A DNA stretch of 40,042 nucleotides from an uncultured Eubacteriales bacterium (GTDB taxonomy: Bacteria; Bacillota; Clostridia; Lachnospirales; Lachnospiraceae), in contig OMVU01000040.1 of NCBI GenBank assembly GCA_900314565.1, positions 1 to 40,042 on the forward strand. Reading direction: 5' to 3'. Below are positions 9,078 through 27,571 of this stretch, piece by piece. Numbering within the stretch: position 1 is the stretch's first letter; each line of letters opens with the position of its first letter. The notes beneath the pieces are model-generated. The model had not been told where the DNA came from. It saw nothing but the letters and a program-made list of their open reading frames with translations, and ran no database searches. The position numbers and the translations under genes were made by a program.

Positions 9078-10268
9078 ATGATTTCCGAGAAAATGAAAGG
9101 CTACGTCGCCAACAGTTCCGTCATCCGTGCGATGTTCGAGGAGGGCAAGAAGATGGCTGCCATTTACGGCGCCGACCACGTCTATGACTTCAGCCTCGGC
9201 AATCCGAACGTTCCGGCTCCGGAAGCTGTCAAAGAGGCGATCAAGGATATTCTTGACAATGAGGATCCGCTTCTGGTCCACGGCTATATGAGCAATTCCG
9301 GATATGAGGATGTCCGCGGCGCGGTCGCAGAGCATCTGAACGGCCTTTACGGAACAAAATATGCCGCGGAGAATCTGCTCATGATCGTCGGTGCAGCCGG
9401 CGGCATGAATGTCTTTTTCAAGACGCTGCTGAATCCGGGTGACGAGGTGGTCACATTTTCCCCGTTCTTCACGGAGTACAGATCTTATGTCGGAAATTAT
9501 GACGGAAAGCTTGTCGAGGTCCCGACGGACCCGGTCACATTCGAGCCGGATCCGGAGAAGCTCGCAGCTGCTGTGACCGCGAAGACGAAGGCGGTCATCA
9601 TCAACTCCCCGAATAACCCCACGGGCGTCGTCTACTCGAAGGAAGTCATCGCGAGGATCGCAGAGCTCCTTGAGGAGAAACAGAAGGAGTTCGGGACGAC
9701 GATCTTCATTTTCAGCGATGAACCTTATCGCGAGATCGTTTACGGTGATTACGAAGTTCCGTGGCTCCCGTCTTTCTACAGGAACACGGTCGTCGGCTAT
9801 TCCTACAGCAAGTCTCTCTCGCTCCCGGGCGAGCGGATCGGCTGGCTGCTCTTCCCGTCGGAGATCGATGATTTTTCCGATATGACGGCAGGCGCAAATG
9901 TCGCGAACCGTATCCTCGGCTTCGTCAACGCGCCGTCCCTGATGCAGCGCGCGGTCGCAAGATGCCTGGATGAGAAGACGGATGTCGGATATTATGCCGA
10001 GAACCGTAAGATGCTCATGGAAGGGCTCGCAGCGGCAGGATATACATTTGTCGAGCCGCAGGGAGCTTTCTATCTCTGGCTCAAGTCTCCGGAGGCGGAC
10101 GAGAAGGCCTTTGTCGCGAAGGCGAAGGAGAAGCAGATCCTGATCGTTCCGGGATCAAGCTTCGGATGTGCGGGATGGACGCGCGTCGCTTACTGCGTAT
10201 CCCATGATACTGTCCGGAACTCACTGCCCGGTTTTAAGGCGCTCGCAGAAGAATACGGGCTCAGGTAA
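9078..10268 (+). CDS. PLP-dependent aminotransferase, class I/II
   Basis: 396 residues, start behind AAGGAGG. Fold-type I aminotransferase features: NSPNNPTGVVYSKEV (PLP-binding Asn and substrate loop), FSDEPYREI (Asp contacting the PLP nitrogen), and SYSKSLSLPGERIGW with the Schiff-base lysine at 245. By family, it transfers an amino group between an amino acid and a 2-oxoacid; the close match to the aspartate/aromatic class does not settle the substrate. It is followed by hisC, another aminotransferase of the same fold, but the two are separated by about 165 bases containing a duplicated segment, so they may not be one operon. Its 3' end, including the stop codon, appears to take part in that duplication. 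Confidence 0.9.
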   Translation: MISEKMKGYVANSSVIRAMFEEGKKMAAIYGADHVYDFSLGNPNVPAPEAVKEAIKDILDNEDPLLVHGYMSNSGYEDVRGAVAEHLNGLYGTKYAAENLLMIVGAAGGMNVFFKTLLNPGDEVVTFSPFFTEYRSYVGNYDGKLVEVPTDPVTFEPDPEKLAAAVTAKTKAVIINSPNNPTGVVYSKEVIARIAELLEEKQKEFGTTIFIFSDEPYREIVYGDYEVPWLPSFYRNTVVGYSYSKSLSLPGERIGWLLFPSEIDDFSDMTAGANVANRILGFVNAPSLMQRAVARCLDEKTDVGYYAENRKMLMEGLAAAGYTFVEPQGAFYLWLKSPEADEKAFVAKAKEKQILIVPGSSFGCAGWTRVAYCVSHDTVRNSLPGFKALAEEYGLR

Positions 10269-10412
10269 ATGAAATAAGCCGGCACAGGGCGCCGGATGCG
10301 GCAGGTCTCTGCCTGCAGCGTTATACAGACAGGCTGGAGAAAATGTGAAATGCAGTGCTCCGGGCGCCGATTGCGTCAGGCCTCTGCCTGCAGCATAACA
10401 CAGACGAACTTA
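10268..10412 (+). repeat. 75-bp imperfect tandem duplication between the aminotransferase gene and hisC
   Basis: Two copies offset by 75 bp. The best-conserved blocks are GGGCGCCG (10287 and 10362) and CTCTGCCTGCAGC (10307 and 10382), followed by ATACAGAC/ACACAGAC. The first copy seems to begin at the stop codon of the aminotransferase gene (AAATGAAATA versus AAATGTGAAATG). The copies are diverged, so the exact ends are uncertain. Confidence 0.75.
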
Positions 10413-10432
10413 GGAAATACTTGAGGAATATT

Positions 10433-11488
10433 ATGAGCTGGGAAGAAAATGTGCGGAAAGTCGTCCCTTATACGCCGGGCGAGCAGCCGAAGGTCACCGA
10501 CATCGTCAAATTGAATACCAATGAGAACCCGTATCCTCCGTCACCGAATGTGATGGAGGCGCTCCGGGATCTTTCTGAGGGACGCATGCGTCTCTATCCG
10601 GATCCGAAAGCGGAGGAACTGGTCCATGCGATCGCTGAGGCGTATGGGCTGAAGGATGAAGAGGTCTTTGCCGGCGTCGGATCGGATGATGTGCTTGCGA
10701 TGTGCTTTCTGACGTTCTTTAATTCGAAGAAGCCGATCCTTTTCCCGGACATCACGTACAGCTTCTATGATGTCTGGGCGGATCTCTTCCGCATACCGTA
10801 CGAGACGCAGCCGCTCGATGAGAATTTCCACATCGTGCCCGCTGACTATCTGAAGGAGAACGGGGGGATCATTTTCCCGAATCCGAACGCGCCTACCGGC
10901 GTGGTTCTCCCGCTCGACACGGTTCGGCAGATCGCAGCCGCCAATCCGGACAGCGTGGTCATCGTCGACGAAGCTTATGTGGATTTCGGAGCAGAGAGCG
11001 CTCTGCCGCTCATACACGAGTATGACAATGTGATCATCGTCCAGACGTTCTCGAAATCGAGGAGTATGGCGGGACTTCGCATCGGTTATGCGATGTCGAA
11101 CGCGAAGATGATCAAATATCTGAATGATGTGAAGTACAGCTTTAATTCCTATACGATGAATTATCCGTCCATTAAACTCGGCGCGGCAGAGGTGCGGGAT
11201 ACAGAACACTTCAGAGCTGTATGTGACAAGATCATTGCGACGAGGACGTCTTCGGCGAAGAGATTCCGCGAGCGGGGATTTCAGTTCGAGGAGTCCTGCT
11301 CGAATTTCCTCTTCGTGCGGCATGAGAAAGTCAGCGCGAAGGAGATCTTTGACTATCTGCGGACGCAGAACATATTTGTCCGCTGGTTCAACAAGCCGAG
11401 GATCTCGAATTATCTGCGCGTGACGATCGGGACGGACGAGGAGATGGATAAGCTGTTTGCGGCGCTTGACCGGTTTCTTGATCGCTGA
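10433..11488 (+). CDS. hisC: Histidinol-phosphate aminotransferase
   Basis: 352 residues from the ATG at 10433, which follows TTGAGGAA and begins the conserved N-terminus (MSWEENVRKVVPYTPGEQP). An upstream in-frame ATG at 10355 lies inside the duplicated spacer and was rejected. Features: KLNTNENPYPPSP, the Asn of FPNPNAPTG, VDEAYVDF, the PLP lysine 208 in TFSKSRSMAG and RIGY. It converts imidazole-acetol phosphate to histidinol phosphate in histidine synthesis. No other his gene is nearby; isolated hisC-like genes can also act on aromatic amino acids, so specificity is not certain. The stop codon is part of a 54-bp duplication. Confidence 0.85.
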   Translation: MSWEENVRKVVPYTPGEQPKVTDIVKLNTNENPYPPSPNVMEALRDLSEGRMRLYPDPKAEELVHAIAEAYGLKDEEVFAGVGSDDVLAMCFLTFFNSKKPILFPDITYSFYDVWADLFRIPYETQPLDENFHIVPADYLKENGGIIFPNPNAPTGVVLPLDTVRQIAAANPDSVVIVDEAYVDFGAESALPLIHEYDNVIIVQTFSKSRSMAGLRIGYAMSNAKMIKYLNDVKYSFNSYTMNYPSIKLGAAEVRDTEHFRAVCDKIIATRTSSAKRFRERGFQFEESCSNFLFVRHEKVSAKEIFDYLRTQNIFVRWFNKPRISNYLRVTIGTDEEMDKLFAALDRFLDR

Positions 11489-11557
11489 CGCAGAATGCTC
11501 CTGATTTCAATCGTGAGATCAATGCACAAAGAGAACTTCTGACGCAGAATGCTCGTG
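11485..11557 (+). repeat. 54-bp-offset duplication of the hisC 3' end
   Basis: The phrase CTGACGCAGAATGCTC occurs at 11485, spanning the hisC stop codon (11486-11488), and again at 11539, an offset of 54 bp; both are followed by a GTGAT-like or CTGAT stretch. Only the start of each unit is well conserved. Confidence 0.7.
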
Positions 11558-11613
11558 ATGTAAAATAAAACAGTAAGGCCCGTGGCCCTATATACGTAAA
11601 CGGAGGATTAGAT

Positions 11614-12102
11614 TTGCAGGTAGTAGTTGATTGGTTTCAGACAAATCTGGGCTTTCTGCCCCCACAGCTTCTCGTGACGCTGGTCTCGATGCTGCCGCTC
11701 ATTGAGCTGCGCGGCGGCATTCCGCTTGCGCGTCTTCTGATGCTGCCCCTGTGGCAGGCGCTGCTCTTTTCGGCGATCGGCAATATTCTGCCGATTCCGT
11801 TCATTCTCTTTTTTATCGAGAAGATCTTTGACTGGCTTCGTCCCACGAAGCATTTTGGGGGAATCGTTAAAAAGCTTGAGGCGAGAGCCCTTGGCAAGTC
11901 GGATGGGATCCAGAAAGCTGAATTCCTTGGTCTGACACTCTTTGTCGGGATCCCGCTGCCGGGAACAGGCGGATGGACGGGAGCTCTCATTGCGTCGCTT
12001 CTCAAGATCGACAGGAAGAAGGCCTCTCTGGCCATTCTGCTCGGCATTGCACTTGCGTCGACGATCATGTCTTTCATTTCCTACGGCGTGTTCGCGATGT
12101 GA
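11614..12102 (+). CDS. Small multidrug export family membrane protein (COG2426-like)
   Basis: 162 residues from a TTG start at 11614 with CGGAGGA upstream. Strongly hydrophobic, about four membrane segments, with the family pattern LIELRGGIPLA near residue 30 and GIPLPGTGGWTGALIAS near residue 110. Such proteins are annotated as small multidrug exporters, but the transported substrate is not established. It stands alone between hisC and a promoter/terminator region. Confidence 0.82.
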   Translation: MQVVVDWFQTNLGFLPPQLLVTLVSMLPLIELRGGIPLARLLMLPLWQALLFSAIGNILPIPFILFFIEKIFDWLRPTKHFGGIVKKLEARALGKSDGIQKAEFLGLTLFVGIPLPGTGGWTGALIASLLKIDRKKASLAILLGIALASTIMSFISYGVFAM

Positions 12103-12142
12103 TAAAGATTGCCGCGGTGCACTCACCTGGATGGGATAATGA

Positions 12143-12171
12143 TTGCCCAAGGCGCATATAATTAGTATAAT
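12143..12171 (+). promoter_or_regulatory. Sigma-A promoter upstream of the alpha/beta hydrolase gene
   Basis: TTGCCC (12143-12148) and a perfect TATAAT (12166-12171) with a 17-bp spacer. The transcript would start near 12178, directly ahead of the hairpin at 12182-12206, about 65 bases before the hydrolase ATG. Confidence 0.7.
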
Positions 12172-12181
12172 GGTTTTACCG

Positions 12182-12206
12182 GGGCGGCCCAGGCCGCCCT
12201 CTTTTA
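12182..12206 (+). terminator. Terminator-like hairpin inside the hydrolase leader
   Basis: GGGCGGCC (12182-12189) pairs with GGCCGCCC (12192-12199), followed by TCTTTTATT. It may end transcription coming from the membrane-protein gene, but it also lies just downstream of the promoter at 12143-12171. Confidence 0.65.
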
Positions 12207-12245
12207 TTCAGTTCAGTGGATAACGGATGCTGACCGGAGGACATA

Positions 12246-13211
12246 ATGAGGAAGAGTATGATAGCTGGAATTTTGGGGGGAGCAGCGGTTTGCGGAGGCG
12301 CCGTCGGAACATTTATCGCCTATCAGGTTTTTAACGGATTTTTGAAGCGCAACAGTGATATCCGTATGGATGATGAGCCTGCGGACGAGCGCTATACAGG
12401 CCCGGATCTTCACGAAGCCTACATGGAAGGCTACAGATATAATAAAGCCCTGCCGAAGCAGGATGTCACGATCAAGGCAGGGGATGGGATCACTCTTTTC
12501 GGATCCTTTATACCGGCCGAAGGAGAAGCCGTTCGTACGGTCCTGCTCGCCCATGGTTATCACAGCAGTCCGGACAAGGATTTCTCCGGTATCATGCAGT
12601 TCTATCATGAGAACGGCTGCAATCTGCTCGCGATCGAAGAGCGCAGTCATATGCGGAGCGGAGGGACTTATATCACGATGGGCGTCCGTGAGAGCGAGGA
12701 CGTGAAGCGCTGGTGCGAGTATTTGAACAGAGAACGCGGGGCGGACAGTATGCCGCTCTATCTGCACGGCGTTTCCATGGGGGCTGCGACAGTCATGATG
12801 GCGCAGGGAGAGGATCTTCCTCCAAATGTTGCCGGAATCATCGCGGACTGCGGATTTACAAGCCCCTTTGACATTGCTGTTGCGGTCATGAAGACAAAAA
12901 TGAAAGGCCCCGTCAAATTCAGCGTCGAATGGGTCAACCTGATCACGAAGAGAATAGCCGGGTTCGACCTGAAAGATAAGAGTACGGTCGATATTCTGAA
13001 GAACGCGAAGATTCCGATGCTCTTCGTCCACGGGACCCTGGATGACTTTGTTCCGGTCCATATGACGATCAAGAGCTATCACGCATGCGCGGCTCCGAAG
13101 AGGATCATGCTGGTGGACGGCGCGACGCATGCGATGTCCTGGCACATCGATACAGAACGATATAAAGAAGCGATCCTGGAGCTTTTTCAGGAGAACGATG
13201 CAAGGATCTGA
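12246..13211 (+). CDS. Alpha/beta hydrolase with N-terminal membrane anchor
   Basis: 321 residues, start preceded by CCGGAGGA. An N-terminal hydrophobic segment (about residues 5-25) suggests an uncleaved signal anchor, so the enzyme domain probably faces outward. The alpha/beta-hydrolase core shows VLLAHGYHSSP (oxyanion region), the nucleophile elbow GVSMG with Ser177, a later Asp in VHGTLDDFVP and the catalytic His in DGATHAMSW. Resembles COG1073 hydrolases such as Bacillus YqkD. Substrate unknown; esterase or peptidase action is inferred from the fold. Confidence 0.85.
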   Translation: MRKSMIAGILGGAAVCGGAVGTFIAYQVFNGFLKRNSDIRMDDEPADERYTGPDLHEAYMEGYRYNKALPKQDVTIKAGDGITLFGSFIPAEGEAVRTVLLAHGYHSSPDKDFSGIMQFYHENGCNLLAIEERSHMRSGGTYITMGVRESEDVKRWCEYLNRERGADSMPLYLHGVSMGAATVMMAQGEDLPPNVAGIIADCGFTSPFDIAVAVMKTKMKGPVKFSVEWVNLITKRIAGFDLKDKSTVDILKNAKIPMLFVHGTLDDFVPVHMTIKSYHACAAPKRIMLVDGATHAMSWHIDTERYKEAILELFQENDARI

Positions 13212-13248
13212 AGACGGCCATAAGACCGGCAGGATGGAAATGCACATG

Positions 13249-13352: not shown

Positions 13353-13373
13353 ATATGTTGGGAGGAGGAAAAA

Positions 13374-15315: not shown

Positions 15316-15347
15316 GAAAATTCGAATAGGTGTGGAGGAGTACGTAT

Positions 15348-16208
15348 ATGCGGTTTACGAAGATGCACGGTATCGGCAACGATTATGTTTATGTCGACTG
15401 CACGAAGACAGAGCTTCAGGATCCGGCAGAGATCGCCAGATTCGTGAGCAACAGACATTTCGGAATCGGGTCTGACGGGCTTATCCTGATCAAATCGTCG
15501 GATGTCGCGGATTTTGAGATGGAGATGTACAATGCGGACGGCAGCCGCGGAAAAATGTGCGGGAACGGGATCCGCTGCGTCGGAAAGTATGTCTATGATC
15601 ACGGAATGACCGATAAGACGGTCGTGAAAATTGCGACGGGAGCAGGCATTAAGACCCTGACACTTACGGTGAAGGACGGGAAGGCGGAGCAGATCCGTGT
15701 TGATATGGGCGGAGCGATCCTTGAAGCTTCGGCGATTCCGACGACGCTCACGGATGCATCCGGAAGGACGGCGATTCTTGCGCCGATCGAGATCCTCGGG
15801 AAGGAATACCGTCTGACCTGCGTCTCGATGGGAAATCCTCACGCTGTCTGCTTCATGGAGAACCTTTCTGACGTGGAGGAGCTTGAGATCGAGAAGATCG
15901 GACCGCATTTTGAACATGCGGACGTATTCCCCGACAGAGTAAATACAGAGTTTGTCTGTGTGGAGAACGCGCACAGCATCCGCATGCGCGTCTGGGAGCG
16001 CGGCAGCGGTGAAACGGAAGCCTGCGGGACCGGTGCCTGCGCGACGGCTGTCGCAGGGATCCTTACAGGGAAGGTGCAGAGTCCGGTGACTGTCCGTCTG
16101 AACGGCGGGGACCTTCTGATCGAATGGGACGGTGCCGACAGCTCCGTCTTTATGACCGGTCCGGCGGTGGAGGTATTCCGGGGGGAGATCGATCTTACGG
16201 AAAGATGA
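15348..16208 (+). CDS. dapF: Diaminopimelate epimerase
   Basis: 286 residues from ATG 15348, preceded by GTGGAGGAG; six extra upstream codons in the frame were rejected. It interconverts LL- and meso-diaminopimelate for lysine and peptidoglycan synthesis. The two catalytic cysteines are present: Cys71 in GKMCGNGIRC and Cys226 in EACGTGACAT. The N-terminal FTKMHGIGNDYV and the duplicated beta-barrel architecture fit the family, with normal length. Confidence 0.95.
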   Translation: MRFTKMHGIGNDYVYVDCTKTELQDPAEIARFVSNRHFGIGSDGLILIKSSDVADFEMEMYNADGSRGKMCGNGIRCVGKYVYDHGMTDKTVVKIATGAGIKTLTLTVKDGKAEQIRVDMGGAILEASAIPTTLTDASGRTAILAPIEILGKEYRLTCVSMGNPHAVCFMENLSDVEELEIEKIGPHFEHADVFPDRVNTEFVCVENAHSIRMRVWERGSGETEACGTGACATAVAGILTGKVQSPVTVRLNGGDLLIEWDGADSSVFMTGPAVEVFRGEIDLTER

Positions 16209-16583: not shown

Positions 16584-17843
16584 ATGAAAAAGAGGCTTTA
16601 CGCCCTGGCAGTGACACTCCTCCTTCTCCTGCTGACAGCGGGCTGTGCGGAAAATGTACAGCTGATAGAAACTGACAGCGGTTTTTTCGGTGAATCAAAG
16701 AAACCGGAGCCGATCTCGATTCCGCCTGATGCGGAGCTCGTCGAGGTAACACCTACGCCGCAGGCGGAGGAAGCGGGCAGACTGGTCTATCTGATCCTGC
16801 CCACGGAGACCGGACTGTCACTCAGGGAGAAGGAAATTATAACGGAGACACTCGGGGCATCTGATATAACTGTAGAGGTGCGAACGCACGAGTATGAAGC
16901 GGAGACCCAGTCACAGCTCTTTCTTGAGGCTATTGAGGCAGGTGCCGATCTTATCCTCTGCGACAACGCGGATCCGGATACGACCGTTGCGGATGTCACA
17001 GCTGCCTATGAGGCGGAGGTTCCGGTCATTCTCATGAATCGGGGAACGATGTCGATCGGGAGTGCTTCCGGTCAGCTCGTGACGGACCGCTTTTCCTGCA
17101 TGGGCAAGCTGATCGAAGTTTTCGCGAAGCGGGAGGAAGGGTACAGCAGATACGCTCTTCTGTGCGACAGATCCAATATGGAGGATTCGGATTCGGCGGA
17201 TTCATTCCGGGATACGATGTTCGCTTACCCGGATATGGTCTGCCAGGTCGATGAAGACGTGAGCGGGCAGGACATGGAACAGATGAAAGAGACTGTGCGG
17301 AATATCCTTGCCGCAAACCCGTACATTCATGCTTTCGTCTGCGCAAATGTGGACGAGACGCAGGCTGTGTGTGAGGTACTTTCGGAGGAGAATATTTCCC
17401 GGACGGTCATCTGTCTTGACGGAAATAAAGACCGGGTCTACGAGCTCTGCCGAAGCGGCGACGTCTACGCGACGATCGTTAAGCCTGCAGAGGCGATTGC
17501 CACGAAGGCATGCGAGGAGGTCCTTCATTTCTTTGAACATGGATCTACCGGGGAAAATGAATTCCGTTACTTCGCCGGCGTCATCATTACAGTGGATGAT
17601 ATAGCTGCAGAGGACCAGGCCGGGACGGCGGGACCGGAGATTCCGGGTGAACCGCATCCTGAACCTTCAGCAGTTCCCGAACCGACCCCGGAGACAGAAA
17701 GTACAGAATCCGGCGGGGCGGAGAGTATTCCCTCTGAAACACCGGGGGAATCTAAAGGAGAGATGGCTGACTCCGACATCTCTCCTGAACCGACGGTTTC
17801 GCATGTGACCGAGACCGTGACGGAGAGTGCGGAGTCACATTGA
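16584..17843 (+). CDS. Periplasmic-binding-protein-like lipoprotein with Pro/Glu-rich tail
   Basis: 419 residues. Signal peptide with a long Leu run and lipobox LTAGC, lipidated Cys21. Residues about 65-345 resemble sugar-type periplasmic binding proteins (two-lobed; segments such as LILCDNADPDTTVADV, VPVILMNRG and VICLDGNKDRVYEL). After residue 345 the sequence becomes a Pro/Glu/Ser/Thr-rich tail (GEPHPEPSAVPEPTPETES), probably disordered. No transporter genes lie next to it, so it may be an orphan sensor or binding protein. The start follows GGGGGACAATC. Its last 50 bases, including the stop, are duplicated immediately downstream. Confidence 0.8.
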   Translation: MKKRLYALAVTLLLLLLTAGCAENVQLIETDSGFFGESKKPEPISIPPDAELVEVTPTPQAEEAGRLVYLILPTETGLSLREKEIITETLGASDITVEVRTHEYEAETQSQLFLEAIEAGADLILCDNADPDTTVADVTAAYEAEVPVILMNRGTMSIGSASGQLVTDRFSCMGKLIEVFAKREEGYSRYALLCDRSNMEDSDSADSFRDTMFAYPDMVCQVDEDVSGQDMEQMKETVRNILAANPYIHAFVCANVDETQAVCEVLSEENISRTVICLDGNKDRVYELCRSGDVYATIVKPAEAIATKACEEVLHFFEHGSTGENEFRYFAGVIITVDDIAAEDQAGTAGPEIPGEPHPEPSAVPEPTPETESTESGGAESIPSETPGESKGEMADSDISPEPTVSHVTETVTESAESH

Positions 17844-17914
17844 AAAAATGAAGTTTCGGTTTCGCATGTGACCGAGACCGTGACGGAGAACGCGGAGCTA
17901 CATTGAAAAATGAA
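17794..17914 (+). repeat. 63-bp-offset tandem duplication of the lipoprotein gene 3' end
   Basis: CGGTTTCGCATGTGACC starts at 17794 and again at 17857. The first copy runs through the stop codon (ending CACATTGAAAAA), and the second ends with the similar CTACATTGAAAAA. The copies differ at only a few positions over about 50 bases, so the duplication is recent. Confidence 0.93.
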
Positions 17915-17939
17915 CTATGCTTTATGATCGGAGGATGAA

Positions 17940-18734
17940 ATGAAAATATCAGTTATCGGATGCGGAAATATGGCCGGCGCGATCATGGGAGGCATGATAA
18001 AGAACGGACTTGTCTCTCCGGAGGAAGTGACAGCATCGGACGTGTTCGAGCCTGCAAGACAGAGGGTCCGGAATAACCTCAGGATCAATACTGTCTCTGA
18101 TAACGCGGATTGTGTGAAAGGCGCGGATCTTGTGCTCTTTGCCGTAAAGCCCGGCTCCTTCGCCGGGGCGGCAGCGGGTCTGTCTGAAGTAATCACGAAG
18201 GATCAGCTTGTTCTTTCGATTATGGCGGGTAAGTCGATCGCCGATCTGGAAAGCGTTCTGGGATCGGATAAGAAAATCGTCCGGCTGATGCCGAATACAC
18301 CGGCACTGGTCGGGGCGGGGATCACGGGTTACTGCCCGAACGGCAATGTCTCGGAGGAGGAGATGCCGGTGGTCCGCCGGGTGATCGAGTCCTTCAGCGA
18401 GGCGGAGCAGGTCCCGGAAAGCCTGATGGGCGTCGTGACGTCTTTGAGCGGCAGCTCTCCGGCTTACGTCTACATGTTCATAGAGGCGATGGCGGACGCG
18501 GCGGTCGCGGATGGGATGCCGAGAGATAAGGCATATCATTTCGCAGCGCAGACGGTGCTCGGCAGTGCCAAGATGGTCCTTGAGACCGGAAAGCATCCGG
18601 GAGAGCTCAAGGATATGGTGACTTCTCCGGCCGGGACGACCATCGAGGGCGTGGCCATGCTCGAGAAGAAGGGCTTCCGGAGTGCAGTGATCGAGGCTGT
18701 GCGGGCGTGCACGGATAAGGCGCTGCATATGTAA
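17940..18734 (+). CDS. proC: Pyrroline-5-carboxylate reductase
   Basis: 264 residues, start behind CGGAGGA. The Rossmann nucleotide-binding motif VIGCGNMAGAIMGG opens the protein; AVKPGSF, RLMPNTPALVGAG and the C-terminal helical dimer domain with VTSPAGTTIEG complete the signature. It reduces 1-pyrroline-5-carboxylate to proline with NAD(P)H, the last step of proline synthesis. The 3' end, including the stop codon, recurs downstream and appears to be the seed of the repeats in the following 950 bases. Confidence 0.95.
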   Translation: MKISVIGCGNMAGAIMGGMIKNGLVSPEEVTASDVFEPARQRVRNNLRINTVSDNADCVKGADLVLFAVKPGSFAGAAAGLSEVITKDQLVLSIMAGKSIADLESVLGSDKKIVRLMPNTPALVGAGITGYCPNGNVSEEEMPVVRRVIESFSEAEQVPESLMGVVTSLSGSSPAYVYMFIEAMADAAVADGMPRDKAYHFAAQTVLGSAKMVLETGKHPGELKDMVTSPAGTTIEGVAMLEKKGFRSAVIEAVRACTDKALHM

Positions 18735-18802
18735 AACGGATGATTGCGAATTATGCGTTGAGTTTTGCGAGCGCCTGCATATGTAAAACAGGTAATTGCG
18801 AA
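18724..18802 (+). repeat. 52-bp-offset duplication of the proC 3' end
   Basis: CTGCATATGTAAAAC, containing the last codons and stop of proC (TAA), occurs at 18723 and again at 18775, followed by GGATGATTGCGAA and AGGTAATTGCGAA. Related but diverged units continue as the 43-bp array at 19250-19450. Confidence 0.8.
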
Positions 18803-18932
18803 ACGCTGTTCTCACAATTCCATTTCGCACAGAGTTTCGCAGGCGCCTGTTATGTTAAAGAGCGTAAGGGAATTCAGATCTTCTGTGCGGAAGAAAAGGG
18901 ACACGAGTGGCAGGAAAATGAAAAGACCTGCA

Positions 18933-18984
18933 AAAAGGAGCTGGGGCATCGAAATGATTGATTCTGATGCCCCAGCTCCTTTTG
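18933..18984. terminator. Strong 18-bp hairpin, bidirectional terminator
   Basis: AAAAGGAGCTGGGGCATC (18933-18950) pairs perfectly with GATGCCCCAGCTCCTTTT (18966-18983) around a 15-base loop. The A/T ends supply a U-run in both directions. It can end proC transcription from the left, or read-through of the CYTH gene from the right. Confidence 0.85.
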
Positions 18985-18989
18985 TGTTC

Positions 18990-19235
18990 ATACATAGCAG
19001 GCAATTGCGAAAGTCTGTGCTTCATGGAATTGCATGAACATTCAAACGGCTTCCGCGCCAGGAACTTCTAACATTCACTCAAGATGTGGAAAAGCATTCG
19101 CAAAAATCGTTAACTCGCTGCGCTCAGACAAAACGGTTTTTGCTCATTCCACATCTTTCGTAAGGCTTGTGCAGATTGTTTGAATTGTTCATACAATTCC
19201 ATTTCACACAGAGTTTCGCAAGCGCCTGTCATACA
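18990..19235. repeat. Long imperfect inverted repeat, MITE-like
   Basis: The arms pair over roughly 55 bases. The best parts are 19025-19047 (TGGAATTGCATGAACATTC...) with 19178-19201 (one gap), and 19006-19020 (TGCGAAAGTCTGTG) with the region 19208-19220. A second internal stem is AAGATGTGGAA (19081-19091) with TTCCACATCTT (19147-19157), continuing as GCAAAAATCGTT/AACGGTTTTTGC. No coding capacity and no obvious target duplication. The right arm is present a second time at 18811-18860. Confidence 0.7.
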
Positions 19236-19249
19236 AAGCCGGAAATTGC

Positions 19250-19450
19250 GGAACAGTACTCCTTTTGTGTCCATACATATTCAAGTAATTACGAAACAGT
19301 GCTTCTTTTATGCTCATACGTAGTCAGGTGATAGCGAAACAGTGCTCCTTTTATGCTCATACGTAGTCAGGTGATAGCGAAACAGTGCTCCTTTTATGCT
19401 CATACGTAGTCAGGTGATAGCGAAACAGTGCTCCTTTTCGTGCTCATATG
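19250..19450 (+). repeat. 43-bp tandem array (five copies)
   Basis: The phrase GAAACAGTGCTCCTTTTATG recurs at exactly 43-bp steps (19250, 19293, 19336, 19379, 19422), each followed by a CATACGTAGTCAGGTGATAGC-like segment. The inner copies are almost identical; the outer two are diverged. The CATAC...TAG...GATAGCGAA part resembles the proC gene end (CATATGTAAAACGGATGATT), suggesting common descent. Confidence 0.9.
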
Positions 19451-19485
19451 ATAAGTTCACCTTTGCATTGAGTCTTTCAGGCGTC

Positions 19486-19710
19486 TGCCATACAAAGAAA
19501 GTGTCATGGCCTGAACTGGGACATCACCGAATTCGTAGAAAGACAATGTCGTGGCCTGAACCGGGACATCACCGGATTCGTAGAAAGACAATGTCGTGGC
19601 CTGAACCGGGACATCACCGAATTCGTAGAAAGACAATGTCGTGGCCTGAACCGGGACATCACCGGATTCATACAAAGCGAATGTCAGGGCTTCGTCTGCG
19701 ACATTACTGA
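19486..19710 (-). repeat. 45-bp tandem array derived from the CYTH gene 3' end (five copies)
   Basis: Units begin at about 19486, 19531, 19576, 19621 and 19666 (ATTCGTAGAAAGACAATGTC and so on). The last unit (19666-19710) overlaps the final codons and stop of the minus-strand CYTH gene (stop at 19684-19686), so on the minus strand the array is a tandem expansion of the gene end into the spacer. The three inner units are almost identical. Confidence 0.93.
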
Positions 19711-20139
19711 ATTATGATAAATGATGTCGTAGGTCACGTCCTTCCCGAACCAGTCCGGAGCAGCGTATGCATTCGCTTCTTCCACGGACGGGAATTCGAT
19801 CTCTGCCAGATAAAGTCCTTCGTGCGGGTTTTTGAAATGATCAAGCTCAATCTTAAGCCCGTTTTCAAGCGGAATGACATACCTGGTCTTGGAGATCAGC
19901 ACTCCGTCGACCTTCTCCTTCAGATGCTCGTAGGAATCCCTGTCAAGAGGCAGATTGTATTCGACACGCTCCATCAGCCCGCCGCCCTTGTAGGTCAGGA
20001 TGTAGGTGTCATCCTGCCGGCGGATCCTTACGACCGGGCTTGTGTTCAGATAACCCTGCTCGATGACATGGTGAGGGTAGGATTCCAGGTCTTCCGGAAC
20101 GGAGCGGAGGAGCCACTTTCGTTCAATTTCTTTTCCCAT
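19684..20139 (-). CDS. CYTH domain protein (triphosphate tunnel enzyme-like)
   Basis: 151 residues. Starts MGKEIERKWLL, the ExExK signature of CYTH domains (Glu4, Glu6, Lys8), followed by the alternating charged strands typical of the tunnel fold (VVRIRRQDD, LTYKGGG, LEIELDHFKNP-like, AEIEFPS). Family members bind triphosphate compounds with magnesium and include class IV adenylate cyclases, thiamine triphosphatases and inorganic triphosphatases; which applies is not decidable. The start follows GAAAGGAGACAAACA on the minus strand. The last codons (NSVMSQTKP) lie within a 45-bp unit that is repeated downstream. Confidence 0.88.
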   Translation of the reverse strand: MGKEIERKWLLRSVPEDLESYPHHVIEQGYLNTSPVVRIRRQDDTYILTYKGGGLMERVEYNLPLDRDSYEHLKEKVDGVLISKTRYVIPLENGLKIELDHFKNPHEGLYLAEIEFPSVEEANAYAAPDWFGKDVTYDIIYHNSVMSQTKP

Positions 20140-20156
20140 TGTTTGTCTCCTTTCGG

Positions 20157-20183
20157 TTGAAACGGCGCAAATTATGTTATAAT
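20157..20183 (+). promoter_or_regulatory. Possible promoter for the DJ-1/PfpI gene
   Basis: TTGAAA (20157-20162) and TATAAT (20178-20183) with a short 15-bp spacer, in the divergent region between the CYTH and DJ-1 genes. The short spacer weakens the call. Confidence 0.4.
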
Positions 20184-20302
20184 AACGTTCATCTGATGAA
20201 AAGTATACAATCCTTTTTATCGTAAGCTGCGCTGCAACTTTACTATAACACGCATGAGAAAACGCGTGTATATTCTTTTGATTTTAGATGGAGGAGAAAA
20301 AG

Positions 20303-20863
20303 ATGAGCAGAGTTTGTGTATTCCTTGCGGACGGATTTGAGGAAGTCGAGGCACTCACGGTGGTTGACCTTCTGCGCCGGGCAGAAATAAATGTAACAAT
20401 GGTGTCTGTAAGCGACAGCCTGCAGGTGCGGGGGCGCAGCAATATTGCCGTGATTGCCGATGAGCTCTGGGATGATGCAAAGCCGGCGAAGTCCGACATG
20501 CTCATACTTCCGGGAGGAATGCCGGGCGTTACATATCTTGAGGAACATGAAGGACTCAGAGATCTGCTCGTTAAATTTGCGGAAGAGGGCAAAGAGGTCG
20601 CCGCAATCTGTGCTGCTCCGACCATCCTCGGCAAGCTCGGCATTTTAAAGGGAAAGAAAGCTACGGTCTATCCCGGTGCGGAAGTGATGCTTAAAGGCGC
20701 GGATGTTGTGCTTGACAAGGAAGTCGTCACGGACGGTAATATTACAACGAGCCGCGGTGCCGGCACTGCGATCCCGTTCGCGCTGCGCCTGATCGAGATC
20801 CTCAGCGGGGCGGAGTTGGCTGATAAGATAGGTAAGCAGATCGTCTATTCCTGCACGGAGTGA
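20303..20863 (+). CDS. DJ-1/PfpI family protein
   Basis: 186 residues from ATG 20303, which follows GGAGGAG at the right distance; an ATG at 20288 overlaps that site and was rejected. The family's nucleophile elbow is seen as AAICAAPTILG with Cys103, together with Glu in FEEVEAL and the LPGGMPG loop. Members act as glyoxalase-like deglycases, chaperones or stress proteins of the cytoplasm; the exact role cannot be assigned. The gene end (tyr-ser-cys-thr-glu-stop) begins a 56-bp tandem array. Confidence 0.88.
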   Translation: MSRVCVFLADGFEEVEALTVVDLLRRAEINVTMVSVSDSLQVRGRSNIAVIADELWDDAKPAKSDMLILPGGMPGVTYLEEHEGLRDLLVKFAEEGKEVAAICAAPTILGKLGILKGKKATVYPGAEVMLKGADVVLDKEVVTDGNITTSRGAGTAIPFALRLIEILSGAELADKIGKQIVYSCTE

Positions 20864-21087
20864 GCACACAGGCCCTGAACAGTGATGAAGATAAATTATC
20901 TGTTCCTGGATGGAGTGAGGACTCAGGCCCTGAACAGTGATGAAGATAAATTAATCTGTTCCTGGATGGAGTGAGGACTCAGACCTTGAACAGTGATGAA
21001 GATAAATTAATCTGTTCCTGGATGGAGTGAGGACTCAGACCTTGAACAGTGATGAAGATAAATTAATCTGTTCCTGCACGGAGTAAG
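20845..21087 (+). repeat. 56-bp tandem array starting in the DJ-1/PfpI gene 3' end
   Basis: CTRTTCCTGSAYGGAGT begins at 20845 (inside the gene, spanning its stop), 20900, 20956, 21012 and 21068, that is steps of 55, 56, 56 and 56 bp. Each unit continues with CAGRCCYTGAACAGTGATG. The partial last copy again reads CCTGCACGGAGT like the gene, while the middle copies read CCTGGATGGAGT. Confidence 0.95.
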
Positions 21088-21222
21088 CTGCTGCAGTCCA
21101 CCGAAGGCTTTAAATTGCTTTTCGCATCCAACTCATATTTGTAATTACGAGATTTCGTTTCTTTTCAAAGCCAGACTATATGGTATTTGCAGGAATGAGA
21201 CAGCTTTTGCTTGTCTCCATGC

Positions 21223-21400
21223 GATTAGGTACAGCGGTGGAAATTCCTGAAATTGTTCCCCGTAAGTATGCGCTGTTTTTCAGCTGATTAGGTACAGTAG
21301 TGGTTATTCCTGAAAATGTTCCCCGCAGGTATGCTTGGTTTTTCAGTTGATTAGGTACAGCGGTGACTTTTTACAGATTTGTTCCCCGTGTGCGCTCTGA
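21223..21400 (+). repeat. 63-bp tandem array (three copies)
   Basis: GATTAGGTACAG starts at 21223, 21286 and 21349 (steps of 63 bp). Each copy continues with TTCCTGAAA-like sequence and TGTTCCCCG. The third copy is truncated. Shares two short modules, in inverted orientation, with the array at 21433-21646. Confidence 0.9.
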
Positions 21401-21432
21401 TATCTGGAGAACAATTACTTGAAATCTGCCTC

Positions 21433-21646
21433 CTGTGCCTAAACGGCTCGCAGAGACGGACTTTCCTTGGGAACATCCGATGAAAAATTGTCTTCTGTGC
21501 CTAAACGACTCACAGAAACGGACTTTCCTGGGGAACATCCGATGAAAATTTGCTCCCTGTGCCTAAACGGCTCGCAGAGACGGACTATCCTGGGGAACAT
21601 CCGATGAGAAATTGCCTCCTGTGCCTAAACGGCTCGCAGGGACAGA
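21433..21646 (+). repeat. 62-bp tandem array (four copies)
   Basis: CTGTGCCTAAACGGCTCGCA starts at 21433, 21495, 21557 and 21619 (steps of 62 bp), each followed by GACGGACT and GGGGAACATCCGATGA. The fourth copy is partial. On the minus strand the unit contains TGTTCCCC and TTTAGGCACAG, like the neighbouring 63-bp unit. Confidence 0.92.
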
Positions 21647-21672
21647 ATTCTGCGTCAGAGAGTAAAAAAAGA

Positions 21673-21702
21673 TTGTGATTTATGAGACTCCTGTGCTATA
21701 CT
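21673..21702 (+). promoter_or_regulatory. Promoter of tig
   Basis: TTGTGA (21673-21678) and TATACT (21697-21702) with an 18-bp spacer, 66 bases before the tig start codon and directly after the repeat arrays. Confidence 0.55.
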
Positions 21703-21767
21703 GTCTAAATGTCTGTATGATGAGATAATCGGAGCAAATATCCGAAGTTTTAGGAGGATGCATTTCC

Positions 21768-23054
21768 ATGAATACACAGGTAGAAAGACTTGAACATAGT
21801 ATGGTCAAGCTGACGGTCACTGTCCCGGCTGAAGATTTCAATAAGGCGATCACCAAGGCTTATCATAAAACCAAAGGCCGCATCAATATTCCGGGTTTCC
21901 GTAAAGGAAAAGCACCGCAGCAGATCATTGAGCGCATGTATGGTCCGGAGATCTTCTACGATGACGCAGTCAATTTTGTGATCAATGACACTTATTCTGA
22001 CGCAGCGGACGAGGCAGGGATCGAGTTCACATCCAGACCTGAGTTCGATGTTGAAAATGTAAAGAAGGGCGAGGACCTCGTCTACACAGCGCTTGCAGCA
22101 GTCCGTCCGGAAGTTGTTCTCGGCGAGTACAAGGGCCTCGAGATTCCGAAGTTCGAAGCGGAAGTCACAGACGAGGATGTTGAGAAAGAACTCCAGAGTG
22201 AGCAGAAGAAGAACAGCCGCAAGATCGATGTCACAGACCGCCCGGTAGAGAACGGCGACTCTGTGATCCTTGACTATGCGGGCACGATCGACGGTGTCGC
22301 ATTTGACGGCGGTACAGCGGTAGACGCGCCCCTGAAGATCGGCTCCGGCACATTCATCCCGGGCTTTGAGGAGCAGCTGATCGGCGTATCCATCGGGGAG
22401 GACAAGGATGTTGTCGTGACATTCCCGGAGGATTACAACGCAAAGGACCTTGCCGGCAAGGAAGCAGTCTTTGCATGCAAGATCAAGAAGATCCAGAAGG
22501 AAGAGCTTCCGGAGCTCGACGACGAGTTCGCACAGGATGTCTCCGAATTCGATACGCTTGACGAGTACAAAGAAGATCTCAGAAAGAACCTTCTGACAAG
22601 GAAGCAGGAGCAGGCGAAGACAGCACGTGAGAACGCTGTCGTTGAGAAGCTTGTTGCCGCGACCGAGATCGACGTACCGGAAGCGATGAAGAACTACGAA
22701 GCAGAGAAGATGTTCGAGGAGTATGCACAGCAGCTCCAGAGCCAGGGCATCCCGGTCGACATGTACCTTCAGTATCAGGGACTTGACGCGGACAAGTTCA
22801 AGGAGACCCTGATCCCGCAGGCAGATCAGAGGATCCGCACACGCCTTGTCCTTGAGGCAGTCGTGGACGCTGAGAAGATCGAGATCTCTGAGGAAGAGTT
22901 CGACGCGGAAATCTCCCGTCTTGCAGAGCAGTACAAGATGGAGAAGGATCAGCTGACGAAGATCATCGGCGATTTCGAGAAGAAGCAGATGGAGAAGGAT
23001 CTTGCCGTTCAGAAGGCAATCACTCTTCTCGTGGAGAACGCCACAGAGGCATAA
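21768..23054 (+). CDS. tig: Trigger factor (ribosome-associated chaperone)
   Basis: 428 residues, usual length. The N-terminal ribosome-binding domain carries GFRKGKAP (residues about 43-50), the ribosome docking signature; a central FKBP-type prolyl isomerase domain (about 160-245) has GSGTFIPGFEEQLIG; the C-terminal helical domain forms the substrate cradle. It shields nascent chains at the ribosome exit. Start behind AGGAGGATGC. The position just ahead of clpP-clpX-lon is a conserved Firmicute arrangement linking folding and proteolysis. Confidence 0.97.
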   Translation: MNTQVERLEHSMVKLTVTVPAEDFNKAITKAYHKTKGRINIPGFRKGKAPQQIIERMYGPEIFYDDAVNFVINDTYSDAADEAGIEFTSRPEFDVENVKKGEDLVYTALAAVRPEVVLGEYKGLEIPKFEAEVTDEDVEKELQSEQKKNSRKIDVTDRPVENGDSVILDYAGTIDGVAFDGGTAVDAPLKIGSGTFIPGFEEQLIGVSIGEDKDVVVTFPEDYNAKDLAGKEAVFACKIKKIQKEELPELDDEFAQDVSEFDTLDEYKEDLRKNLLTRKQEQAKTARENAVVEKLVAATEIDVPEAMKNYEAEKMFEEYAQQLQSQGIPVDMYLQYQGLDADKFKETLIPQADQRIRTRLVLEAVVDAEKIEISEEEFDAEISRLAEQYKMEKDQLTKIIGDFEKKQMEKDLAVQKAITLLVENATEA

Positions 23055-23106
23055 TTTTACCGAATATCGCCTGCTGTGGAGAAACTCGTAGTATGGAGGT
23101 ATTATT

Positions 23107-23694
23107 ATGAACAATGTTCTGGTTCCATATGTTATTGAACAGACCCCTCAGGGGGAGAGAAGCTATGACATCTATTCCCGCCTTTTGAAGGAAAGAATCA
23201 TTTTCCTGGGAGATGAGGTCAACGACGCGACTGCACAGATCATTGTCGCCCAGCTCCTTTTCCTTGAGGCGGAAGATCCGTCCAAAGACATCAGTCTGTA
23301 TATCAACAGTCCGGGCGGTTCTGTCACAGCGGGATGGGCTATTTATGACACGATGCAGTACATCAAGTGCGATGTTTCAACAATCTGTGTCGGTATGGCT
23401 GCCAGCATGGGCGCATTCCTCCTCGCAGGGGGTGCGAAAGGAAAGCGGCAGGCTCTGCCGAATGCGGAGATCATGATCCATCAGCCGTCCGGCGGCACAA
23501 GAGGACAGGCGTCCGATATCAAGATCGAAGCGGAGCATATTCTGAAGATCAAAAAGAGACTGAATGAGACGCTCGCGGCGAATACTGGACAGCCGATCGA
23601 AACGATCGAGATCGATACGGATCGCGACAATTGGATGTCCGCTGAGGAGGCGGTCGCTTACGGCCTGATCGACAGCGTTGTAACAAATCGATAA
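23107..23694 (+). CDS. clpP: ATP-dependent Clp protease proteolytic subunit
   Basis: 195 residues. Serine protease triad: Ser100 in GMAASMGA, His125 in MIHQPSGG and Asp174 in [12 protein letters not shown]-terminal VPYVIEQT is the usual ClpP axial-loop start. It forms the 14-mer proteolytic barrel that works with ClpX (encoded next). Start follows ATGGAGG with a short AT-rich spacer. Starts 52 bases after tig; probably cotranscribed, and a terminator follows. Confidence 0.97.
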
Positions 23695-23705
23695 TGTAAC
23701 CTGAA

Positions 23706-23740
23706 GACTCCTGTCCGCTAAAATAGGCAGGAGTCTTTTT
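23706..23740 (+). terminator. Rho-independent terminator after clpP
   Basis: GACTCCTG (23706-23713) pairs with CAGGAGTC (23728-23735), followed by TTTTT. It separates tig-clpP from clpX, at least partly. Confidence 0.88.
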
Positions 23741-23784
23741 ACGAAAATGAGACATATTTTGCCCACGAATGCCTTCGGCATGAG

Positions 23785-23830
23785 TGGCTGCAAAATAGTC
23801 ATCCGACGCCATTAAGTCAGATTTCAAAAC
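23785..23830 (+). repeat. Repeated leader element, copy 2 (before clpX)
   Basis: Same two blocks as at 13249-13352 (GCTGCAAAATAGTCAT and GCCATTAAGTCAGATTTC), here contiguous except for CCGAC, followed by a small AAAAC/GTTTT hairpin and the clpX Shine-Dalgarno. A further hairpin (GAATGCC/GGCATGAGTG region) lies just upstream. Confidence 0.8.
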
Positions 23831-23854
23831 TTCGTTTTGAGAGGAGGAGATAAT

Positions 23855-25168
23855 ATGGCAGGCAGAGTGAAAATGGTACGCTGCAGCTTCTGCGGAAAGT
23901 CGGAAGATCAGGTGAGAAAGCTGATCTCCGGACCTGCAGGAATATACATCTGTGATGAGTGTGTTGAGATCTGCTCTGAGATCATAGAGGAAGAAGAAGA
24001 GAACAATCCTTACGCCGGTAAGGAGAAGGGCGGGATCAACCTGAAAAAGCCGATGGAGATCAAGGCTTTTCTCGATGAGTATATTATCGGTCAGGAGGAG
24101 GCAAAGAAGGTCCTTTCCGTTGCGGTCTACAATCATTATAAGAGACTGCTCGCACCGGAAGAGGTCGATGTGGAGCTTCAGAAATCCAATGTCATGGTGC
24201 TTGGACCGACCGGGTCCGGCAAGACGCTTCTTGCACAGACGCTCGCAAGACTTCTGAATGTCCCGTTCGCGATCGCGGACGCGACGACACTCACGGAGGC
24301 CGGTTACGTCGGTGAGGATGTTGAGAACATTCTTCTCAAGCTCATCCAGGCTGCGGATTTTGACCTTGAGAGGGCGAAGAAGGGTATCATCTATATTGAT
24401 GAGATCGACAAAATCGGAAGAAAGTCCGAAAATGCGTCCATTACCCGCGACGTATCCGGTGAGGGCGTTCAGCAGGCGCTGCTCAAGATCGTCGAGGGGA
24501 CGGTCGCTTCTGTTCCCCCGCAGGGAGGCCGCAAGCATCCCCAGCAGGAGATGATCCAGATCGACACGTCGGAGATCCTTTTCATTTGCGGCGGCGCGTT
24601 CGTCGGAATGGATAAGATCATAGAGCGCAGGATGGAGACGAAATCCATCGGTTTCGGGGCGGAGCTCCGCAAGACCGAGAAGGAGAAAAATGTCGGAGAG
24701 ATCCTCAAAAATGTCATGCCCGAGGATTTCGTGAAGTTCGGACTGATCCCGGAGCTGATCGGCCGTATACCGGTCGTCGTCTCGCTGGATGAGCTCGACG
24801 AGGAAGCACTCATCCGCATTCTCAGGGAGCCGAAGAACTCCCTCGAGAAGCAGTACAGTGCCCTGTTCGCGATGGACGGCGTGAAGCTGACGATCGAAGA
24901 CGAAGCACTGCATGAGATCGCGCATGAGACCGTCATCCGGAAGACCGGTGCCCGAGGACTTCGCGCGATTGTTGAGAAGGCAGTCACGGAGGCAATGTAT
25001 GTGGTGCCTTCCGATGAGACGATCACGGAAGTCATCATTACGAAGGATGCGATTGCAGGAAAGGCTCCTGCGACTTACGTACACGGGGCGCGTGTGCTTG
25101 CGAAAAAAGAAACGAAGGCGAAGGATACCGCCAGGAAGCAGACAAAGCCCGCGAAGAAAACGATCTGA
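23855..25168 (+). CDS. clpX: ATP-dependent Clp protease ATPase subunit
   Basis: 437 residues from ATG 23855 (GAGAGGAGG upstream); six upstream codons of the longer frame were dropped. An N-terminal C4 zinc finger (Cys10, Cys13, Cys33, Cys36) binds substrates and adaptors; the AAA+ core has Walker A GPTGSGKT (Lys123), Walker [10 protein letters not shown], and the IGF loop for ClpP docking (KSIGFGAE). It unfolds tagged proteins and feeds them to ClpP. The end is a Lys/Thr/Ala-rich tail, somewhat longer than in many ClpX proteins. Confidence 0.97.
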
Positions 25169-25186
25169 TTACGAGGTAAATGTCTT

Positions 25187-27511
25187 TTGAACGAAACACC
25201 GTATATGACTACGCTCCCCGCGGTCGCGCTTCGCGGCACGGCTGTGCTTCCGGGGATGATCGTACATTTTGATATCAGCCGGCCCCGCTCTGCGGCGTCG
25301 GTCAACAGGGCTATGCTGAAGGACCAGAAAATTTTTCTGATCCTTCAGAGAGATGTCCATGTGGAAGATCCGGCGATCGATGATGTATGGAATGTCGGAG
25401 TTTACGCGTCCATTAAGCAGGTTGTAAAGCTGCCGAAAAATATGATCCGGGTCCTTGTTGAGGGAATAGAGCGCGCGGAGATCATTCGTCTGGAAAAGAG
25501 TGAGGACTACCTTGAAGCCCTGGTGAGTATTCCGCAGAAATCAACTTCCGCTGATGTCCCGGCGGCCATCCGTGAAGCCATGCTCCGCGGGATCCGGGAG
25601 CTGTTTGCCGAATACTGCAGGGAGAATGGAAACATCAGCAGAGATGTTGAGGGACAGATCATGGAGATCGACGATCTGGCCGATACACTCAGCCAGATAT
25701 CGATCAATCTGCCGCTTCCCTATGAGAAACGCCAGCTCATCCTTGAGGCGATAACCGTAGAGGATCAGTATGAGACGCTGGGAATGCTTCTCGCCAACGA
25801 GACGGAAGTGATCCGCGTGCAGAGGGAGATCCAGGAAAAGGTACGGCAGCGTGTCGACAAGAACCAGCGGGAATATGTCCTGCGGGAGCAGCTCAAGGTG
25901 ATCCGCGAGGAGCTCGGCGAGGATACGACACAGAACGAGATCGACCGTTTCAAAGAGCAGGCAGGAAAGCTTAAGGCGAAGAAGGAAGTCAAGGAGAAGA
26001 TCTTTGATGAGATCATCCGGCTGCAGAATCTCCCGGCCCAGTCTCCGGAGAGTGCAGTAGCCCGGGGCTATATAGAAACGCTGCTTGCGATGCCATGGGA
26101 CAAAGCGGGAAGAGACCGCAACAGTCTGGCGAAAGCCCGTGAGGTGCTGGAGCGCGACCATTACGGCCTGCAGAAGGTCAAGGAGCGTATCCTGGAATTT
26201 CTGGCCGTCCGCCAGCTAACCGCAAAGGGGACGAGCCCGATCCTGTGCCTTGTCGGACCGCCCGGTACCGGCAAGACATCCATCGGCCGCTCGATCGCCG
26301 AAGCGCTGAACAAAAAGTATATCAGACTGTCTCTCGGCGGAGTCCGCGACGAGGCGGAGATCCGCGGCCATCGCCGGACATACGTCGGTGCGATGCCGGG
26401 CAGGATCGCGACAGGGCTTCGCAAATCGGGAGTCCGAAATCCGCTGATGATGCTCGACGAGGTCGATAAGCTGAGCAGCGATTACAAGGGAGATACAGCT
26501 TCCGCGCTGCTGGAGGTCCTTGATTCCGAGCAGAACAGTCATTTCGAAGACCATTATATTGAGATACCCATCGACCTGTCGGACGTGCTCTTTATCGCTA
26601 CGGCAAATGACGCGAATACAATCCCGAGGCCGCTCCTGGACCGTATGGAGGTGATCGAGATCACTTCCTATACCGAAAATGAAAAGCATCACATCGCCAA
26701 AGACCATCTGATTCCCAAGCAGAAGAAGGCGAACGGAATCGAGGAGGATAAGCTGTTCATTTCCGATGAAGCAATCAGCGATATGATCGTGAAGTATACG
26801 CGTGAGGCCGGTGTGCGCCAGCTCGAGCGGGAGATCGCTCATGTCTGCAGGAAGACTGCCAGGATGATCCTGGAGGAGAAGAAAAAGAGTGTGGAGGTGA
26901 CCGGGGAGAATCTCGCTGATTTTCTCGGTACCGAAAAGTACACTGTGAATCCGGCCAACGATGCGGACGAGATCGGTGTCGTGCGCGGGCTCGCCTGGAC
27001 TTCGGTCGGCGGTGTGACGCTGCAGGTCGAGGTCAACCTGATGCCCGGCAAGGGGGATTTTCTGCTGACAGGCCAGCTTGGCGACGTTATGAAGGAGTCG
27101 GCGCAGGCAGGAATCAGTTATCTGAGATCCGTAGCCTCTGAGTATGGTATCGATGAAGATTTCTTTTCGAAGCATGATATCCATATTCATATCCCTGAGG
27201 GAGCGGTCCCAAAGGACGGTCCGTCCGCAGGCGTCACGATGGCGACGGCCATGTTCTCTGCGATCACGAAGAAGCATGTGCGGGCGGATGTTGCTATGAC
27301 CGGAGAGATCACGCTCCGGGGACGGGTGCTGCCGATCGGAGGTCTGCGGGAGAAGCTCCTTGCAGCCGGAAAAGCCGGTATCAGGAAGGTCCTCGTGCCG
27401 GAGAAGAACCGTCAGGATATGGCGGACGTGTCGGCGGAGATTACGGAAGGCCTTGAAATTGTCTACGTGCAGACCATGGAAGACGTGCTCAGGGAGGCGC
27501 TGGCCTCCTGA
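25187..27511 (+). CDS. lon: ATP-dependent Lon protease
   Basis: 774 residues, starting at TTG 25187 (ACGAGGTAAA upstream), 18 bases after clpX; an internal ATG at 25205 is an alternative. N-terminal substrate domain (1-200), coiled helices, AAA+ module with Walker [10 protein letters not shown] (Lys363) and Walker [11 protein letters not shown], then the serine-lysine protease domain with [10 protein letters not shown] (catalytic Ser680) and the lysine about 43 residues later in AAGKAGIRK. It degrades misfolded and regulatory proteins in the cytoplasm. The 3' 54 bases including the stop are duplicated directly downstream. Confidence 0.97.
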
Positions 27512-27571
27512 GCAGATGACGTGCAGACCATGGAAGATGTGCTCAGGGAGGCGTCGCCTCCTGAGCGGATG
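27465..27571 (+). repeat. 54-bp tandem duplication of the lon 3' end
   Basis: ACGTGCAGACCATGGAAGA begins at 27465 (inside lon) and again at 27519. The first copy includes the lon stop codon (27509-27511). The second is 53 bp and nearly identical, with four or so differences and a one-base gap. It fills the whole lon-engB spacer up to the engB ribosome-binding site. Confidence 0.95.

Follow-up and report, generated by a model that had tools for sequence, protein, structure and literature searches.

The window analysed here is a whole contig of 40,042 nucleotides (C77) from the draft genome of an uncultured Lachnospiraceae bacterium (GCA_900314565.1; 4.2 Mb in 191 contigs, 3.84% contamination), and our subject is the set of short tandem duplications that lie in its intergenic spacers and, at several genes, run over the stop codon. 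A sequence-only reading of this DNA had listed seven genes whose 3′ ends, stop codon included, were copied in tandem into the following spacer, and had suggested a systematic process acting at gene ends, perhaps near transcription termination. The listed repeats were checked singly by Tandem Repeats Finder (TRF), a direct-repeat search and sequence inspection, and genes were predicted with a purpose-written, simple coding-potential gene finder. The features of the window are as follows.

4715..4883, plus strand: 29-bp tandem array (4723-4872 by TRF) that starts at the DUF975 stop (gene at 3087-4721) and takes in at most 7 coding bases
10282..10405, plus strand: aminotransferase repeat, two copies at an offset of 75 bp, wholly beyond the stop at 10268
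11485..11564, plus strand: hisC stop region, two partial copies (26 bp, offset 54)
12096..12147, plus strand: end of the PF06695 gene (11614-12102), two partial copies of 18 bp over the stop, offset 34
17794..17914, plus strand: lipoprotein 63-bp unit, 1.9 copies, spanning the stop (17843); TRF
18718..18802, plus strand: proC end, 33 bp at 82% identity, repeated at offset 52
18998..19228, minus strand: interspersed palindromic element resembling a miniature inverted-repeat transposable element (MITE), with CAGGCnnTTGCGAAAC termini and the flanks TCATACATAG / TCATACAAAG; limits judged from the sequence
19248..19448, no strand assigned: 43-bp array, 4.7 copies, inside a spacer; TRF
19489..19713, minus strand: CYTH gene-end array, 45-bp unit, spanning the stop at 19684-19686; TRF
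20844..21084, plus strand: DJ-1 array, 56-bp unit, 4.3 copies, spanning the stop (20863); TRF
21223..21388, no strand assigned: 63-bp array inside the spacer downstream of DJ-1; TRF
21430..21643, no strand assigned: 62-bp array, 3.5 copies, in the same spacer; TRF
27465..27572, plus strand: lon 54-bp unit, 2.0 copies, spanning the stop (27511); TRF

Six of the seven listed units do include the stop codon, the aminotransferase unit being the one that starts after it. The strength of the repeats is uneven: the lipoprotein, CYTH, DJ-1 and lon units, which both TRF and the direct-repeat search recovered, are clear over the stop, whereas proC and hisC have only shorter partial copies, that of hisC being a match of 21-26 bp at 88-95% identity that contains the TGA stop and a single coding base before it. 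The product of the gene called a lipoprotein matches a periplasmic-binding domain; the other gene names agree with Pfam. Two further cases were missing from the list, the stop-spanning copy at the PF06695 gene and the DUF975 array, whose extended match starts at 4715. At 19248-19448, 21223-21388 and 21430-21643 the window also has arrays in the interior of spacers, away from gene ends. The list is thus a selection out of a wider spread of spacer repeats. In the DJ-1 array the inner copies resemble one another more closely than the outer copies do, and copies 3 and 4 are identical, as expected of arrays that grow from within.

Stop codons were compared with start codons across 670 kb of this genome (G000) and in a sister-species genome (G005, 81% complete), with one genome available per species. 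The last 45 coding bases and 12 bases beyond were aligned to the next 200 bp, and at least 6 coding bases had to take part in the match; spacers swapped between genes served as the null, and starts were tested as the mirror image. This form replaced an earlier one that had counted arrays merely starting beside a boundary. At score 24, 22/544 stops in G000 carried a duplication (1.2 expected) and 2/549 starts (1.8 expected). The window had been chosen for its repeats, and the G000 test was therefore redone with it and five masked or odd stretches left out. Stops still far exceeded starts (16/497 against 2.2 expected; starts 2/502 against 2.5 expected), and the 15 stops at a score of at least 25 outside the window are spread over 10 different stretches. 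The same held in G005, with 9/202 stops (0.4 expected) and 2/203 starts (0.8 expected), one of the two start cases being the same repeat as that at the lon end. The pattern recurs across this genome, as the sequence-only reading had anticipated, and in its sister.

In the other genomes sampled, stops were counted at the same score of 24. No stop passed in G011 (0/95, 0.0 expected), G009 (0/61, 0.0 expected), G019 (0/73, 0.4 expected), G006 (0/47) or G012 (0/30), and G013, G018 and G008 had 2/82 (1.0 expected), 1/53 (1.2 expected) and 1/48 (0.2 expected). In G015 the count was 2/90 (2.8 expected), with one stop at a score of at least 40 (0.0 expected). G001 was sampled together with L131, a metagenome-assembled genome of a Lachnospiraceae bacterium from sheep ileum that was kept as the best of 80 loci by its ProC (73% identity); it gave 0/43 stops (0.0 expected) and 2 at score 22 (0.0 expected), so that this small sample has few or no stop copies while repeats make up 8.3% of its noncoding bases. 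Across the 80 named loci, mostly from Lachnospiraceae with some other Clostridia, 12/1069 stops (3.6 expected) and 8/1081 starts (3.4 expected) passed at score 26, a small excess at stops and starts alike.

The excess over chance at stops is matched by the rest of the spacer. When anchors of identical geometry were set within spacers, duplications were found on both sides, at 4.0-8.2% of positions in G000 with the window and 3.3-9.4% in G005. For spacers of at least 150 bp, the corresponding rates at stops were 5.1% (12/234) and 2.2% (2/91), and those at starts 1/272 and 0/101. Interior anchors on the start side, 50-110 bp upstream of start codons, had about the same rate as stops. Without the window, and for spacers of at least 180 bp, duplications in G000 were found at 7/184 stops and at 12/184 anchors 80 bp further on (Fisher P 0.35), at 10/214 anchors 80 bp before starts, and at 1/214 starts themselves (stop versus start, P 0.027). 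Random placement of whole repeat clusters pointed the same way. Without the window, 8/37 clusters lay over stops (null 11.3±2.6) and none over starts (null 11.6±2.8); with it, 14/50 lay over stops (null 15.8±3.2) and none over starts (null 16.6); and in G005 the figures were 5/21 over stops (null 6.2) and 1 over starts (null 6.8). Clusters thus overlap stops no more often than random placement would have it, and they avoid starts. In G005, direct repeats cover 7-8% of the spacer on each side once the first 50 bp are passed, and 1.2% of the 50 bp next to starts. Stops show the level of spacer DNA at large, and the anomaly is a depletion at starts.

The two species were also compared gene by gene. 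Over window positions 7920-33412 gene order is kept in G005; the nucleotide identity of the aligned stretches is 79-95%, for most of them 83-89%, and the median protein identity of 42 orthologous pairs is 92%. Spacer sequence has changed far more: the 60 bp after the stop could not be aligned for 22/28 genes, nor the 60 bp before the start for 14/31. Among the 41 orthologous stops testable in both genomes, a duplication was present in G000 only at 5, in G005 only at 2, in both at 1 and in neither at 33. The DJ-1, CYTH, lipoprotein, proC and PF06695-gene copies were not detected in G005, with the limit that the comparison at proC is short because the G005 contig ends ~87 bp after that gene. Conversely, copies at a clpX-like gene (ending at 25168) were seen only in G005, as were those at the gene ending at 16208, right at threshold. 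At lon both species have copies, and the offsets differ (54 in G000, 39 in G005). Because copies differ between the species gene by gene, the compared arrays are most simply read as independent and younger than the species split.

Taken together, these results favour frequent tandem duplication that is tolerated in spacers and gene tails and purged over starts and coding DNA, a reading to which we give a probability of roughly 0.8. Short tandem duplications would arise often in this clade, beyond gene ends as well as at them. The first duplication may form by slippage at short homologies or by template switching, and further slippage or unequal recombination would expand some duplications into arrays, which point mutation would decay and deletion remove. 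Selection would then eliminate duplications that span a start codon or harm coding DNA, since a copy spanning a start would add a second start, shifting or extending the protein. A duplication spanning a stop, by comparison, would survive like one in plain spacer because its first copy keeps the whole frame and the stop. As stop-spanning copies leave the gene intact, the gene-end signature would be the visible edge of spacer turnover. On this account the pattern is active yet essentially ordinary mutation.

Several observations weigh against this reading. Purifying selection at starts is what we infer from the depletion, and predicted gene starts were checked only by eye and only on the window. 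When the nulls bar overlap with starts, stops fall below expectation, with 14 observed against 19.4-20.2 in G000 (P 0.02-0.03) and 5 against 8.1-8.6 in G005 (P 0.08-0.13); a mild constraint may thus act on stops as well. Repeats in G000 cover ~6.5% of the stop side of spacers and 3.2-3.9% of the entire start side (1.7% in the 50 bp next to starts); the lower start-side figure could reflect a real bias or promoter constraint. Duplicated stops in G005 are more frequent with spacers of 60-149 bp (5/44) than with longer ones (2/91). The spacers of G011 are repeat-rich (5.2% of noncoding bases) and yet none of its 95 stops passed, in a small sample. Of the 42 orthologous pairs, 24 come from the window, including all 8 with a duplication, and the 18 from elsewhere have none in either species. 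Repeat clusters of G000 are uneven among contigs even without the window (36 clusters in 31 contigs; 0/5000 simulations as uneven), whereas G005 contigs show no such unevenness. The unevenness in G000 could stem from a mixed bin, from replication position or from local history. Relative to the other G000 contigs, clusters are concentrated in the window, L061, L036 and L069.

The original idea of a duplication process aimed at gene 3′ ends, for instance through replication or repair at transcription terminators, draws on the strong excess of stops over starts and on the greater repeat cover of the stop side in G000. We regard it as very unlikely, given that duplications are about as frequent at anchors within spacers, including upstream of starts, as they are at stops, and that clusters over stops do not exceed random placement. 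Repeat units fold no better than other spacer DNA (mean z −0.70 versus −0.60, P 0.40, 80 units), and the region 17700-21800 has 3 terminator-like sites versus 3.9 in shuffles. A retained role for the copies as spare stop codons or alternative 3′ ends, as had also been proposed, would suit the stop triplet retained in the DJ-1, lon, lipoprotein, proC and hisC copies. This is very hard to reconcile with the CYTH array, in which three of the four extra copies read CGA where the gene has TGA, with a sister species that lacks most copies at orthologous genes, and with similar arrays in spacers away from gene ends. An assembly artefact might be feared in a draft of this fragmentation and contamination, the more so as G005 contigs break in the proC-CYTH spacer. 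However, most copies differ by point changes (the best pair per cluster is 72-96% identical, DJ-1 copies 3 and 4 being fully so), the second genome has arrays of its own, and the high-scoring stops outside the window come from many separate stretches, which leaves an artefact scarcely credible.

A further possibility is that the direct repeats are target-site duplications left by small mobile palindromic elements inserting near stops. A MITE-like family with flanking direct repeats is indeed present in both genomes, one member sitting in the proC-CYTH spacer. Exact element ends CAGGCnnTTGCGAAAC number 55 in G000 and 30 in G005, with none in ten other genomes searched, and flanking direct repeats of at least 8 bp, often ~12 bp, accompany the element at 15/34 places in the samples, 2/15 of them lying in the element's own ends. 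Sequence resembling an element end lies near the proC copies, and visual inspection places element ends within the proC repeat and within a 33-bp pair in L066; the 43-bp unit at 19248-19448 likewise looks like a terminator tail and element-end sequence joined. Against this, an element end lies within 220 bp of 2/22 stop duplications in G000 and 0/9 in G005, versus 29/544 and 16/202 of all stops. The pattern used for the ends was loose and found matches in shuffled DNA as well (115 versus 51 matches). No insert interrupts the units at lon, lipoprotein, DJ-1 and CYTH, which are complete tandem units, and G001 has repeat-rich spacers and no exact element end. Target-site duplication implies an element between two copies, which the stop duplications do not show, proC being the exception in the window. 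The proC case can be put down to the element, which is highly improbable as a general cause; we regard it as a neighbour of the duplications.

Other sharing among spacers was seen alongside the element. In the G000 and G005 samples, 158/584 spacers of at least 50 bp join in one shared-sequence cluster, links between orthologous spacers included; its hub (L028, 1174-1933) contains further palindromic repeats in addition to the MITE-like element. Sequence related to the 63-bp array at 21223 recurs in L036 spacers and, close to its right end, in those of L061. A search of the window, L028 and L061 for known RNA families found two tRNAs only, neither in the window. Repeats also occur inside coding DNA: the interior of the DUF975 gene (3973-4473) has tandem repeats whose periods, 15, 45 and 51 bp, are each divisible by three, and in L033 (9888-12011) a 69-bp unit recurs in ~31 copies within a long predicted gene.

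The origin of the units was probed through their lengths, junctions and the repair genes at hand, the main tests having sought units from 20 bp up and detected units being mostly 20-80 bp. Hairpin-driven origin gains nothing from the folding comparison above, and unit lengths show no helical or codon phasing (Rayleigh P 0.29-0.99, six periods tried). In 30 arrays with a matched length of 0.85-1.6 times the offset, matched length minus offset was −5 to 4 in 16, above 10 in 10 and otherwise in 4, a mixed picture. Ku-dependent end-joining is disfavoured, with no match in G000 and six same-genus relatives and a match in G015 alone among 11 genomes searched; so is loss of MutS or RecJ, both matched in 11/11. 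SbcD exceeded the cut-off in 8/11 genomes, G000 included, with only a weak match in the incomplete G005. A bolder version, which we consider possible but doubtful, is that a small clade of the genus has hyperactive, regionally concentrated tandem duplication, perhaps joining ends with little prior homology, that would rewrite most post-stop spacer DNA between species at ~92% protein identity.

An apparent gene-end mechanism is thereby replaced by a testable rule, namely that duplications accumulate throughout spacers and are missing only at gene starts, and the sister pair shows how quickly spacer sequence can be replaced. This matters for assembling these genomes and for calling conserved regulatory RNAs after genes, and it offers a natural system for measuring rates of short duplication. 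A literature search turned up no account of gene-end duplication in such bacteria, which we do not take to mean that none exists, and on present evidence there is no new mechanism here.

Among known systems, mycobacterial interspersed repetitive units (MIRUs) are tandem units of similar length between operon genes that touch stop and start codons, and they form one interspersed family. The DJ-1 array differs in being found at a single place in G000, although the 63-bp unit at 21223 does have its relatives in L036. Tandem repeats of archaeal Borgs arise independently and may begin within the end of an open reading frame (ORF), according to the Borg study (PMC9879509). Their units, as described there, are perfect, free of single-nucleotide polymorphisms and A-rich, whereas copies here are mostly diverged, as the identities given above attest. 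Closest are the variable-number tandem repeats (VNTRs) of Yersinia pestis, of which 48 of 88 loci are intergenic, with stops overlapped at 10 loci and starts at 6, a CRISPR locus being among those 6 (PMC3689786). The authors of that survey hold that the ORF stays as it was when copy number changes over its stop and is harmed by changes over its start, and they find the stop-overlapping loci low in diversity, less variable than they had expected (PMC3689786). The Y. pestis motifs are mostly of 7-21 bp and polymorphic among strains, whereas here units of at least 20 bp were sought, copies are more diverged and each species is represented by one genome (PMC3689786). Alike are the mostly intergenic placement, the asymmetry of stops over starts and the explanation argued for it (PMC3689786). 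In the terms used for minisatellites, the repeats described here are head-to-tail copies of a unit longer than ~7 bp, favoured in spacers and rare over starts.

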